Part shown: positions 33,571 through 39,133 of the stretch, in pieces
How the letters are laid out: each line of letters begins with the position of its first letter
How positions within the stretch are numbered: position 1 is the first letter of the stretch
Made by a program: the position numbers and the translations under genes
Assembly: GCA_026702755.1 (NCBI GenBank)
Contig: JAPPBX010000090.1
Span: 1-64,000 of the forward strand
Direction of reading: 5' to 3'
Source: Candidatus Poribacteria bacterium
GTDB lineage: Bacteria > Poribacteria > WGA-4E > WGA-3G
DNA length: 64,000 nt
Notes under the pieces: model-generated
What the model saw: only the letters and a program-made list of their open reading frames with translations
The model's database searches: none
Told to the model about the DNA's origin: nothing

Positions 33571-34323
33571 TTACCATCTACGCGTAAAATTCATTCTACC
33601 CGTAAGTCCGGTTTCACCTTCATCTTTTTTGGTTTCATACCCGACATATATGCCGAGTGTGTTATTCTCGCCATAACCGAGGTTCAAACGTCCACCGAAA
33701 TTCATTGCCCACAGTCCACCGCCATCGCCAAGACCCAGGACTGTTTCAAACTGTGGACCCACCGCGACAGTTTCGTTTAAGGCATACGTAAGGTAAGTTC
33801 GGTTGTAGACTTCATTCAGACTTTCGCTATCAAATATGGTTTTGATTGTGCTGATTGTCCAGTGGAAACCGAAGATTTTACCGGCGGGGAGGATAGCAAA
33901 GATTTGGGGGTATAAGGCATAGGGACCGTCTGGAGTGGTATACTCGAACCCAACGCCGAGCATCGGGGTTAGTAGCAGTGCCATGCTGTCATTCGCGATA
34001 ACAGGGAATGAAATACCCATATCAAACTCGCCCAAATGATCGTTCACATAGATATTAGAATCAAATGAAATGCCACCGCTGAGTGGATGACTTGCACCAA
34101 CCAAAAAATAGGTGCCTAAACTATCGACATCAATCTGAAACCATCCGGTAATCTTTGGTTTTTCTTCCATCGGTTTCTCTTCTGCCTCTTCACCTTCCAT
34201 TTCATGAGCATCGGCGAAGGCAGTAGAAAAACTAACAAAAGACATCATACAAATCATTAAGATAACAACTAATTTAAAGAGGTTGTTGAAAATCTGTAGA
34301 GGACATACGAGAAGGTTATTCAT
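33571..34323 (-). CDS. Predicted outer-membrane beta-barrel protein, paralogue of 25809-26543
   Basis: 250 residues: hydrophobic export segment (about 14-37), acidic post-cleavage segment ADAHEMEGEEAEEKPMEEKP, then barrel-like strands. WF(R/Q)xDxDSLGT near the start and GYGENNTLGIYVGYETKK / GLTGRMNFTRRW at the end match the paralogue 8 kb away. Terminal Trp. Function not recognised. Its start lies 30 bases from the IsrB gene end, i.e. against the right end of that mobile element. Confidence 0.7.
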   Translation of the reverse strand: MNNLLVCPLQIFNNLFKLVVILMICMMSFVSFSTAFADAHEMEGEEAEEKPMEEKPKITGWFQIDVDSLGTYFLVGASHPLSGGISFDSNIYVNDHLGEFDMGISFPVIANDSMALLLTPMLGVGFEYTTPDGPYALYPQIFAILPAGKIFGFHWTISTIKTIFDSESLNEVYNRTYLTYALNETVAVGPQFETVLGLGDGGGLWAMNFGGRLNLGYGENNTLGIYVGYETKKDEGETGLTGRMNFTRRW

Positions 34324-34332
34324 GCTAATCTT

Positions 34333-34374
34333 CGGGCAGGAGACCCCATCCTTTAGGTTGGGGTGGAATGCCCG
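34333..34374 (-). mobile_element. Right-end hairpin of the IsrB element
   Basis: Nested hairpin: outer CGGGCA (34333-34338)/TGCCCG (34369-34374), inner ACCCCA (34343-34348)/TGGGGT (34359-34364). The isrB stop codon (34353-34355) lies in its loop. The architecture matches the hairpin at positions 4-44 of the window and IS200/IS605-type ends. Confidence 0.7.
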
Positions 34375-35381
34375 CTCCTATAGTTAAAGTTAAGCCGTGT
34401 TAAAACTTTGAAACTGTTTTCCTTCGCATTTGTTGTTAATCGTTTTCCGTCAAGGTTATAGAGAGAAAACAACCTTTTTGCGTTTATGCCTGCCAAACGT
34501 GTTAATCCATGTTTCGCATGCTTGACCAGTGTATGCTTTATGAGCCCATTTGCTAATACTGTTCCACCATACCTTGACCGAATACCGCCCTTTTTCGGTT
34601 GTTCTCTGTGGAGAGTTCTTCGCTGGATAGGTATAGGCGATAGACAGAATATATCCGTGTTATCCACTTTAGCAGTGCCACCGATAGTGTAATGTGCCAG
34701 ACACCAACTATCTACACAATGCGCGTCAAACGTTTCTGAAAGTTTCTTGGAGGATTTCTTCAGTCCAAGTCTATCCCGAATCTCTTTTATTTGCCAACCT
34801 TGTAAAGTTCGCAACTCCCAACGTTTCTCTATTTCAGCATAGAACCATTGTTTGCCAACTTCAAGTGGGGAAAAAGAAGTGTTCCACTTCTTGGCATGCT
34901 CTACTGTTCGTGCCTTAATATCCTCAACACATATATGTGTAATAGGATATAACTTTGAAAACCAATCAAGTATTCGTAGTTTCCAATCCCATCTCGCACG
35001 TGTGCCAGCAGGAATACGTTCCTTGTTAGCAAGACGATTCGCTCTGTTTTTTCGGTTTGGACACTTCCGAGAACGCCTGCCTCTACGAAGTTCGCGACGC
35101 TTTTCAACTTTCTGGCATACCTTGTTATGGGCATCTGCCTGCACATTGAAATACGTATGTGATTCCGATTTGACGGTAAAGCCCTCTTTTTGGCTGCCGG
35201 GGTCTACTCCGACAGCAATCTCTTGATTATATCGTTTTGAAGGCTCTCTGTTGAGTCGGACACAGAATACACCGTTGCTCCAAAACGGAGTTGCCTTCCC
35301 TGATTTTATCCACTTCGCTGCCCTGGAAGGACGTGTAGGCATCAATGGCTTTTGATTCTTATCGACAACTGGGACAAACAT
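34353..35381 (-). CDS. isrB: IsrB-like RNA-guided nuclease (IscB relative lacking HNH)
   Basis: 342 residues from the ATG at 35381, where the family's conserved start (MFVPVVDKNQKPLMPT, a PLMP domain) begins; the frame is open 15 codons further. RuvC-I: AVGVDPGS (Asp60). Arg-rich bridge helix about 93-120 (EKRRELRRGRRSRK), the RRXRR region. RuvC-II: HICVEDIKA (Glu153). RuvC-III: DAHCVDSWCLA (Asp224). Only about 65 residues separate RuvC-II and RuvC-III and none form an HNH motif, so it matches IsrB, a nickase guided by omega-RNA, rather than IscB. The C-terminal part (about 265-342) would hold the target-recognition region. No tnpA transposase adjoins. Confidence 0.85.
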   Translation of the reverse strand: MFVPVVDKNQKPLMPTRPSRAAKWIKSGKATPFWSNGVFCVRLNREPSKRYNQEIAVGVDPGSQKEGFTVKSESHTYFNVQADAHNKVCQKVEKRRELRRGRRSRKCPNRKNRANRLANKERIPAGTRARWDWKLRILDWFSKLYPITHICVEDIKARTVEHAKKWNTSFSPLEVGKQWFYAEIEKRWELRTLQGWQIKEIRDRLGLKKSSKKLSETFDAHCVDSWCLAHYTIGGTAKVDNTDIFCLSPIPIQRRTLHREQPKKGGIRSRYGGTVLANGLIKHTLVKHAKHGLTRLAGINAKRLFSLYNLDGKRLTTNAKENSFKVLTRLNFNYRSGHSTPT

Positions 35382-35590
35382 AGTTTGTAACTTCCTTGCG
35401 GATATGTATTTCCCCATCCAGATCACAGTATCCGAGAGGAATCAGACTTGGGGAGCATCCGAAACGTCGTGCTGGCTGCCACACCAAGATACCGCGATAT
35501 TTTACTGTAGTCAATCGTTTAACCTGTGGGTCCCCGTGTGGCTACGGATATTCACAGGTTCCCCCATGCTTTAGCTTGGGGTTATTGACG
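35382..35590 (-). ncRNA. Putative omega-RNA and left end of the IsrB element
   Basis: The roughly 200 bases upstream of isrB on the same strand are rich in structure. Near the far end is the hairpin CCCCAAGCTAAAGCATGGGG (35581-35562), then a stem AACCTGTG/CACAGGTT enclosing CCGT...ACGG (about 35560-35521), then CTTGG/CCAAG pairing nearer the gene. IscB/IsrB elements encode the omega-RNA in this position, with its guide taken from DNA flanking the left end. RNA ends and guide are not determinable by eye. Confidence 0.6.
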
Positions 35591-35611
35591 CTAATCTCCT
35601 TGTTAATGGTT

Positions 35612-36881: not shown

Positions 36882-38918
36882 CTAAGATTCTGCATAGGCA
36901 TCTTTGGCATTGGCCAGAACTTCATCAATTTTAACCTTGGATCCAGTCAAGATCGCATTGGCTAGACTTGCACCGTCTAAGATAGATTCCGTAGTATATG
37001 CTTTCGCCAACACCTCAGTTAGGACGTTAGATAAAGATTTCACTTCAGCGATTTGATCGCAGCAAGCATTTGTGAAGTGCTCACCAATTTTGGGTTCAAT
37101 TTTACTAGCCGAGGCTAATGCCTTAACTAAGTAAGCTTGGACTTCGGCTAAGTCCGCTTTGGTCTGAGTTTCGGCAGCTTCAACTAAGGCTTTGACGGCA
37201 ACAGTTTTGGCATTAGTTTCCGTTTCAATGGCTTCAGTTAAGTCCATTTTTGCTTTCGCTTGGGCAGCTTCAACTAAAGCAGTCTCAGCCTCGGTTAATG
37301 CCTTAACTTTAGCTGCTTCGGCTGCTATCAGTGCTTCAGTTTCAGTTAAGACTGTGAACGTTAAATCTACAGTTAAGGTGCTAACTTTGATTTTGGCATC
37401 GTCTAAGGCATTTATAGCTGCCGTTAAAGCATCTCTAGCTTCTTCGGCTGCAGCTAAGGCAGATTCAGCCTCTTCGGCTGCTGACAATGCTCTGGCTTCT
37501 TTAGCAAAAATTCGGAATGATTTTTCGCGGCATTCCTTAAGGACTGATATAGGGCAACTTAATTCATTGGTGAGTTTGGCTAAGTGCTTCTCGGCTTTGG
37601 TTGAGGTAACTTCGGCTAAGATTAACGCTAGAGCTTCCGCTAAAACCATAGTTTCGGCATTAGCTTTGGTTAAAGAAACCTTGGCTAATGTTTCTGCCTC
37701 AGTTTCGGTTAAGACTGCAAAAGTTAAACCTACGCTTGAGGCATTGTCCTTGTCTCCAACTTCGGCTAAGACTGTTTTAGCTTCAGCTAAGGTTTTATAA
37801 GTTTTGGTTTCCGATTCAGATCGGAATTGGAATTTCTCGAATATCCCCAAAATTGAGTCTTGTTCTAATTTGGTATTGGCTAATGTAGATACTTCAGTAT
37901 TCATAATATGGTCCCTTTCCTCCACAATTTCAGGTGCGCGTCCTTCAATATTCATGATAGCTTCGTACATAGCCGCTATTGCTCCTATTTCGTTTGAGAT
38001 GTCGTGTGCCTCAATCCCTTGATTTTTCATCTGTTCTGCCGAAACTTCAACTTTGGTTTCTGTTTTGGTTCTAGCTCCTATATCAATTCTAGCTTTCGTC
38101 ACATCGGCTTCTGTTAAGGTTAAGGCATTCTTGATTTCGGTTTTTACTTCTGCATTGACTATGGCGTCTTTCGCCTCCACATCAGCTAAGGTGGCTTTGG
38201 CTTTGGTTAAGTCAATTTTCGCATCTGCTAAGACAACTTTAACTTGGATTAACGCGGTTTTTACTTCAATTAGGTCATGATCCTCTTCGTCATAGCGCAG
38301 GAGGTGAAATTGGACCAAAGCATCTACAGCATCAACTAAAGTGGATTTGGCTTCTTCAGCTGCTACCAAGGTAGCATGGGCTTTAGATATAGCTTCTTCT
38401 ACATCGGCTAAGGAGGATTTAGTTTCTTCTTTGACTTTGACTTTAGCCGGCGCATCAACTGTAGATTTGTCCAAGACTAAGGCAGCTCGTACTTCACTTA
38501 AAGCAGCCTTGGCTTTAGCTGCTGCCAAGATAGCTTTGCTTGATGCTATAGCGGTTGCAGCATTTGCGCTGGTTTGGGCTTCTTTGTGGAATTCTTCGGC
38601 TGCGGCTAAAGCTGCTCCCATGGCTAATTCGTTTTCGTAATCGGCTTGGGCTGCAGCTTCCTGCGCCTCGGTTAACTCATAATGGCAAGAACAATTATTA
38701 ACCCCACAACTCGGGCAATAAGGTTCATCAGCGCACGGAGCATAATAAGCTTCATCTTCATCAACTTCATCAACTCTAACATCAGGGTTTGCACTAATTT
38801 TGGCTTCTTCTTCATAGAAAGCTTCTTCAAGCCGTTGATAGTAATTATCATCAGGTTCACCAAAATGGTCAAGATAAGCAAGCCAAGCATCCTGATCTGG
38901 TTCAGGCCAGTCTCGCAT
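36882..38918 (-). CDS. Ala/Lys/Glu-rich repetitive coiled-coil protein with N-terminal Cys cluster
   Basis: 678 residues from the ATG at 38918 (ACGGAGGAATTCT upstream). Residues about 1-55 are acidic and aromatic (MRDWPEPDQDAWLAYLDHFG); about 58-75 is a Cys cluster CADEPYCPSCGVNNCSCH that could bind a metal. From about residue 95 to the end the sequence is a long degenerate repeat of Ala, Lys, Glu, Thr and Val (units like ALVEAAQAKAKMDLTEA), predicted long helix or coiled coil, resembling LEA-like or filament proteins. No signal peptide or membrane segment. The repetitive DNA also leaves long open frames on the opposite strand, which I treat as shadows. Confidence 0.7.
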   Translation of the reverse strand: MRDWPEPDQDAWLAYLDHFGEPDDNYYQRLEEAFYEEEAKISANPDVRVDEVDEDEAYYAPCADEPYCPSCGVNNCSCHYELTEAQEAAAQADYENELAMGAALAAAEEFHKEAQTSANAATAIASSKAILAAAKAKAALSEVRAALVLDKSTVDAPAKVKVKEETKSSLADVEEAISKAHATLVAAEEAKSTLVDAVDALVQFHLLRYDEEDHDLIEVKTALIQVKVVLADAKIDLTKAKATLADVEAKDAIVNAEVKTEIKNALTLTEADVTKARIDIGARTKTETKVEVSAEQMKNQGIEAHDISNEIGAIAAMYEAIMNIEGRAPEIVEERDHIMNTEVSTLANTKLEQDSILGIFEKFQFRSESETKTYKTLAEAKTVLAEVGDKDNASSVGLTFAVLTETEAETLAKVSLTKANAETMVLAEALALILAEVTSTKAEKHLAKLTNELSCPISVLKECREKSFRIFAKEARALSAAEEAESALAAAEEARDALTAAINALDDAKIKVSTLTVDLTFTVLTETEALIAAEAAKVKALTEAETALVEAAQAKAKMDLTEAIETETNAKTVAVKALVEAAETQTKADLAEVQAYLVKALASASKIEPKIGEHFTNACCDQIAEVKSLSNVLTEVLAKAYTTESILDGASLANAILTGSKVKIDEVLANAKDAYAES

Positions 38919-39133
38919 AGAATTCCTCCGTTTAGATATAAAAAAACCAGTATCAACTGAATTTTGCAATTATGTGTCGAAATCGTATCTATTTCGACAC
39001 ATCAGTGTTAAAAAGAAAGTATGGTAATGTTGTAATACCACAGATTTTTACACTATATTGTGATTTTTTGGCCATCTGTGCAATAATCCTATTAGCAGTC
39101 CGAGGTACGGAGGTTTAGTCTTCCATCATCATT

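Follow-up and report, generated by a model that had tools for sequence, protein, structure and literature searches.

IsrB proteins are minimal relatives of the Cas9 lineage, and few IsrB systems have been characterised. The published target-adjacent motifs (TAMs) of IsrB are NTG, NTGA (TTGA at 60 C) and NTGG, with TTGA favoured by DtIsrB and NTG or NTGG by its relatives (PMC9581776). An isrB locus was analysed here in a 64,000-nucleotide stretch of DNA (the window; contig JAPPBX010000090.1, positions 1 to 64,000, assembly GCA_026702755.1) from a Poribacterium, a sponge-symbiont bacterium. Judged from its sequence, the locus is a genuine, well-preserved IsrB system and a predicted RNA-guided nickase. 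The element that carries it is very probably a non-autonomous OMEGA (obligate mobile element-guided activity) element of the IS200/IS605 type, which would be mobilised in trans, insert at start codons, draw its guide from the host leader and be retained through nicking of the empty allele. In addition to what the initial annotation of this DNA had described, the analysis found a large Poribacterial family without a transposase of its own, insertion at start codons, a predicted guide derived from host leaders, and companion elements that lack an open reading frame (ORF). The IsrB system itself adds a member to a kind already known; what is new here is the start-codon context, a property of the group, and the companions are the most novel lead. 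The features of the locus are as follows.

34324-35589, minus strand: whole element, 1,266 bp, reading 5'-GTCAATAACC...CCGAAGATTAGC-3' in coding orientation
35590-35609, minus strand: predicted guide in the host flank, CCATTAACAAGGAGATTAGC, containing the host Shine-Dalgarno sequence AAGGAG and located with reference to the 5' end of the omega-RNA
35382-35589, minus strand: predicted omega-RNA scaffold, 208 nt, with 51 pairs in 9 helices
35562-35581, minus strand: terminal hairpin at the omega-RNA end, CCCCAAGCTAAAGCATGGGG, which is also SL1 of the omega-RNA, with both-side changes in 7 of 8 pairs
34353-35381, minus strand: isrB, 343 codons including the stop, with PLMP, RuvC-I D60, an arginine-rich bridge, RuvC-II E153, RuvC-III H221/D224 and a C-terminal region, and no HNH
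34344-34363, minus strand: terminal hairpin at the 3' end of the gene, CCCCAACCTAAAGGATGGGG, with the isrB stop codon in its loop and the same hairpin in relatives
34320-34323, minus strand: ATGA, which is the target site and predicted TAM and also serves as the start codon of the host gene downstream; constant beside the 3' end in relatives
33571-34323, minus strand: host gene abutting the element, 250 aa, without a Pfam match and with homologues in 38 of the 38 genus genomes searched

The element was delimited with the help of an empty allele and of near-identical copies, in two sets, that occupy unrelated sites; these copies carry 5'-GTCAATAACC on the side of the omega-RNA and GAAGATT(n)GATGA at the opposite end. 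The flanks joined in silico matched this empty allele, which lies in genome G001, at 92% along all 379 bases, and the junction there is exact (AACAAGGAGATTAGC abutting ATGAATAACC), seamless and without target duplication. Genome G007 likewise spans the empty junction, and a second empty site, the start codon of tnpA in L198, is occupied in L072. In the manner of the IS200/IS605 superfamily, the element ends in imperfect palindromes, lies 3' of a short target and shows no duplication of it. The initial annotation had proposed an element of about 1.25 kb with hairpins at both ends, a stop codon in the loop of the right-end hairpin and no transposase. Its size and hairpins (both of a CCCC..CTAAAG..GGGG type) were borne out, while its ends at 34333 and 35590 gave way to 34324 and 35589; the stop codon does lie in a hairpin loop (34353-34355), at the low-coordinate end of the element and thus the 3' end of the gene rather than the right end. 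An 8-bp sequence, GCTAATCT (AGATTAGC in gene orientation), occurs at 34324-34331 inside the low end and again at 35590-35597 outside the high end, is present once in the empty allele and is not repeated in this way in the other copies inspected; chance, microhomology and gene conversion are candidate origins.

The ORF at 34353-35426 on the minus strand opens with GTG and encodes 357 aa. A start at the ATG at 35381 would give 342 aa plus stop with the N-terminus MFVPVVDKNQKPLMP, and this is the likelier start because the residues before it come from the 3' part of the omega-RNA, including the conserved stretch GATCTGGATGGGG which translates as IWMG. The only Pfam domain is RRXRR (2.3e-33) and the NCBIfam guided_IscB model gave a partial match below its cutoff in the N-terminal half. 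Among solved structures, DtIsrB (8DMB) was the best match (E=1.2e-34, residues 17-344 of the 357-aa reading), followed by IscB structures matching the N-terminal part alone. An HNH domain was found neither by Pfam nor as an HNH-sized insert in the DtIsrB alignment of these residues, and the interval of 70 residues between E153 and D224 leaves no room for one. D60, E153, H221 and D224 were invariant across 101 full-length homologues of uniform architecture (335-361 aa), and the median ratio of nonsynonymous to synonymous substitution rates (dN/dS) was 0.095 against 43 homologues, a rough figure because synonymous divergence is high. These results indicate that isrB is a full-length gene, intact in its RuvC residues and under purifying selection. 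The description of an HNH-less relative of IscB, with KPLMP, D60, E153 and D224 in the places first assigned and a structured RNA conserved upstream, was thus upheld by alignment to the IsrB and IscB references and, for the RNA, by covariation.

The 208 nt upstream of isrB are a predicted omega-RNA with a fold supported by covariation in an alignment of 62 non-redundant relatives. Nine helices were recognised, S1, SL1, SL2, an 11-bp stem, SL4, SL5, SL7 and two pseudoknots, with the following strands defining S1 and the pseudoknots.

35510-35515, minus strand: S1 3' strand, pairing with 35584-35589 (helix 1); its pair 6 is CG in 23, UA in 22, UG in 13 and GC in 2 sequences
35478-35481, minus strand: adaptor pseudoknot strand TGGC in the SL4 loop, pairing with GCCA of SL2 at about 35539-35542 (helix 4, 96.4% paired)
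35412-35415, minus strand: strand GGGG of the nexus pseudoknot, whose partner is CCCC in the SL5 loop at 35450-35453 (helix 8, 98.8% paired)

Paired cells amounted to 93.3% compared with 83.4% in shuffles, and pairing fell to 32-45% when the partners were slid by one to three columns. Changes on both sides were found in 30 pairs (19.9 in shuffles) and 295 cells (74.4 in shuffles), and these are the stronger evidence because the structure was drawn from the same sequences, which favours the pairing percentage. The adaptor pseudoknot covaries (GC 36 and AU 22 at one pair), and the nexus pseudoknot shows little covariation because it is nearly invariant. With SL2 wired to SL4, and SL5 to the S2-SL7 linker, the RNA falls into group A in the grouping of PMC9581776. 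In a permissive search the Rfam HEARO model (RF02033) aligned end to end (35589-35387) with a score of 25.5 bits (E=0.0076), short of the 83 that it requires for gathering.

The insertion site was examined in 101 scored 3' ends, chosen by a pattern that admits ATGA or GTGA alone (14 further loci did not fit and were left out), and the boundary tetranucleotide was ATGA in 90 and GTGA in 11 of these. An ORF of at least 100 codons opened at 58 of the 101 boundaries compared with 0 and 5 in the other two frames. With p-values that assume independent sites, related genomes being independent in part only, 57 of 100 boundaries opened such a frame after duplicate flanks were removed versus 16.2% of 3,030 [AG]TGA sites taken from these flanks as controls (p=2e-20), a Shine-Dalgarno-like motif occurred in 37 of 93 guides (40%) versus a background of 6.2% (p=9e-21), and the motif went with an open frame (28/51 versus 9/42, p=0.0013). 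The guide length of 20 nt was adopted from DtIsrB (PMC9581776). In the G001 empty allele, the window guide precedes the ATG, and AAGGAG lies a few bases before it. In four of eight inspected loci of distant, independently annotated relatives, the element stops exactly where the next gene is annotated to begin. These four (L263, L264, L265 and L269) lie on cyanobacterial plasmids, from Leptolyngbya, Stanieria and Dolichospermum, and in the Microcystis phage Ma-LMM01. The target and predicted TAM, ATGA or GTGA, is therefore usually a host start codon, in agreement with the published IsrB TAMs, and after insertion the host gene would stay readable with its start codon kept. ATGA and GTGA beside HEARO elements were reportedly noted by Weinberg et al. 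in 2009. No report of start-codon placement of IsrB or IS605 elements, or of HEARO with ATGA, was found in the literature searched, most subscription journals lying outside it.

Homologues were present in 45 of 98 related genomes with up to 21 copies each, and the genome bin of the window holds three; besides the one in the window there are two whose proteins are 75% and 73% identical to it. None of 115 IsrB loci, including the element in the window, encodes its own TnpA, and the element was filed as a non-autonomous IS200/IS605 derivative since it has no Y1 transposase of its own and is presumably moved in trans. Y1 transposases are present in the host genome, and some tnpA elements of related genomes share the end architecture of CTAATCTTC, stem and hairpin. 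We infer the action of TnpA in trans from the loci without TnpA, the common Y1 genes and this shared left-end architecture. Two IsrB copies (L083 and L149) end in TTAG|ATAA with a different left-end stem, like the tnpA elements L204/L205 (target TTAT), a possible co-evolution of ends with different TnpAs.

The mechanism that we propose would begin with the Y1 transposase of another IS200/IS605 element mobilising the IsrB element as single-stranded DNA. On the top strand of the transposon the insertion point would follow TCAT on its 3' side, which, read in the direction of the gene, is the position immediately ahead of ATGA or GTGA. Since these are often start codons, the element would come to lie between the ribosome-binding site and the start codon, with isrB co-directional with the host gene. 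A transcript from the host promoter would then carry the gene leader, which would become the 5' guide, followed by the omega-RNA, isrB and the host gene with its start codon preserved. The occupied allele would be no target because the insertion separates guide from TAM. In an empty allele, whether an excision product, a sister chromosome or an incoming relative, guide and ATGA would be contiguous and form a target; IsrB would nick its non-target strand, repair from the occupied copy would be favoured, and the element would be kept or spread.

Several observations weigh against this account. The excess at start codons could reflect the survival of harmless insertions rather than targeting, because insertion there leaves the gene intact and selection alone could give rise to the pattern. 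The host bin, a draft that is 96% complete, yielded no TnpA whose TCAT ends match exactly, and the Y1 genes there have other ends. Twenty-five of the 62 omega-RNAs have TTTTC in place of TTGAC in the S1 3' strand (alignment A1, columns 104-105), which breaks the same two of six pairs and is the sole systematic departure from the structure, and some copies elsewhere carry in-frame stops or are truncated.

Three other explanations were considered and rejected. It is unlikely that the locus is a domesticated RNA-guided regulator, in which IsrB and guide would bind near start codons to regulate host genes, mobility having become secondary or been lost. The start-codon position, the guides over ribosome-binding sites and a match to the guide end plus ATGA elsewhere in the genome (C87:95708, 2 mismatches) would suit such a role; however, by inserting, the element abolishes its own matching target in cis, the RuvC residues are invariant and not lost, and related genomes hold copies at many unrelated sites, some near-identical and hence recent. 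Still less probable is a decayed IscB that lost its HNH secondarily, to which the sub-cutoff guided_IscB match and the weak match to HEARO, the IscB-type RNA, could be credited. DtIsrB is instead the best full-length match, the 101 homologues share a single architecture with dN/dS of about 0.1, and the adaptor pseudoknot is present, which according to PMC9581776 is conserved in IsrB and degenerate in IscB. That the terminal hairpins serve as transposase binding sites alone, with no guide RNA, is highly improbable: the same hairpin type does occur at both ends as IS200/IS605 ends require, but a further eight helices, of which two are pseudoknots, are supported in the stretch from the end of the element to the start codon, the majority showing both-side changes, and the omega-RNA structure stands far above shuffled and slid controls. 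The trans-mobilised OMEGA element with a leader-derived guide is the reading that we retain.

A search of four genomes with the omega-RNA also returned matches without isrB. These belong to ORF-less elements of 430-490 bp (L212-L217 and L218-L247, for example L213:773-1260 and L217:774-1258) whose ends are of the IsrB type and whose omega-RNA is complete (S1, SL1, SL2, the GCCA-TGGC pseudoknot and the nexus CCCC-GGGG), and in which a conserved 3' RNA domain stands in place of isrB. By DNA similarity the domain was present in 20 of 38 genus genomes and absent from the genome of the window. It contains GNGUCAGGU..GAAGCAGCNC, the signature of helix 8 of signal recognition particle (SRP) RNA with its CAGG/AGCA symmetric loop, where the SRP RNA of a same-genus genome reads CCGUCAGGUCCGGAAGGAAGCAGCGG. 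Of 73 genomes from the order, 17 contained the exact helix-8-like pattern, about 37 times in all, compared with 0 in a reversed control and 0 on both strands of 1.7 Mb of other DNA, and its single free position on both sides was T-A in 14, G-C in 12 and G-U in 1 of 27 distinct sequences. Since a motif drawn from the elements is bound to match them, what counts is that it is missing elsewhere, that a compensatory change occurs and that it agrees with SRP RNA. After the helix-8-like part, the 3' domain continues with what reads as a covarying H-type pseudoknot. Start codons were the insertion sites of 8 of 15 distinct ORF-less elements (p=0.001). An IsrB element (L054 in G017) and an ORF-less element (L222 in G025) from different species sit at the start codon of seemingly orthologous genes (MSQEEKKESEETKDEEKN and MSEKEKNESEETEDEEKD).

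Against the likeness to SRP RNA, Rfam gave no SRP match in the ORF-less elements and the apical stem of the helix-8-like domain is about 30 nt rather than a tetraloop. Single-sequence folding of the 3' domain was no better than in shuffles, so the case for the likeness has to come from covariation and motif conservation. Standalone omega-RNAs acting with IscB are known and are cited in PMC9581776. It is possible, and we put it forward tentatively, that the ORF-less elements are companions of IsrB resembling short interspersed nuclear elements (SINEs), with an Ffh-binding mimic of SRP RNA helix 8. They might borrow IsrB and TnpA in trans, their RNA perhaps being brought to ribosomes or Ffh, as Alu RNA is for the long interspersed nuclear element LINE-1. 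If the likeness is functional, the companions would be a bacterial parallel to SRP-derived SINEs; we know of no description of an SRP-like domain in such omega-RNA elements.

The start-codon rule suggests a natural meaning for the NTG-type TAM, a way in which the inserted element can be tolerated and a route by which the guide RNA could be transcribed, from the promoter and leader of the host. The clade provides diverse natural copies, well over a hundred in number, together with their guides, which could aid omega-RNA design and TAM prediction. Elsewhere in the window, a 695-aa ORF at 36882-38969 on the minus strand is rich in Ala/Lys/Glu/Thr near-repeats (AEAKTALAEV-like) and is probably a coiled coil. 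At the gathering threshold, Rfam matched a tRNA only across the whole window.

Among known systems, the Poribacterial IS605 tnpA-tnpB elements (L072, L198 and L204) have similar end hairpins, with the CTAATCTTC left end in L204/L205, but encode TnpA (and TnpB in L072) and have TTAT rather than TCAT as target where this is readable. IscB/HEARO (RF02033) has its omega-RNA in the same place, shares the 5' GUCAA start and gives a weak full-length covariance match; it differs in that IscB possesses an HNH domain and in that the Rfam score lies under the gathering threshold. CsIsrB, K2IsrB and BbIsrB, the group A systems of PMC9581776, share the pairing of SL2 with SL4 and of SL5 with the S2-SL7 linker and have NTG/NTGG TAMs, a likeness taken from the published description. 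DtIsrB from Desulfovirgula thermocuniculi (PDB 8DMB) differs in its group B wiring and its scaffold of 262 nt, compared with group A and 208 nt here, and the window protein has T at the position of the TAM-reading Q326 with R323 kept, as read from the alignment. The two proteins are otherwise alike, at about 350 aa with PLMP and RuvC without HNH and alignable nearly end to end, and both systems have the RNA directly upstream, an NTGA-type TAM (the one here being predicted), adaptor and nexus pseudoknots, and SL7 beside the start codon.
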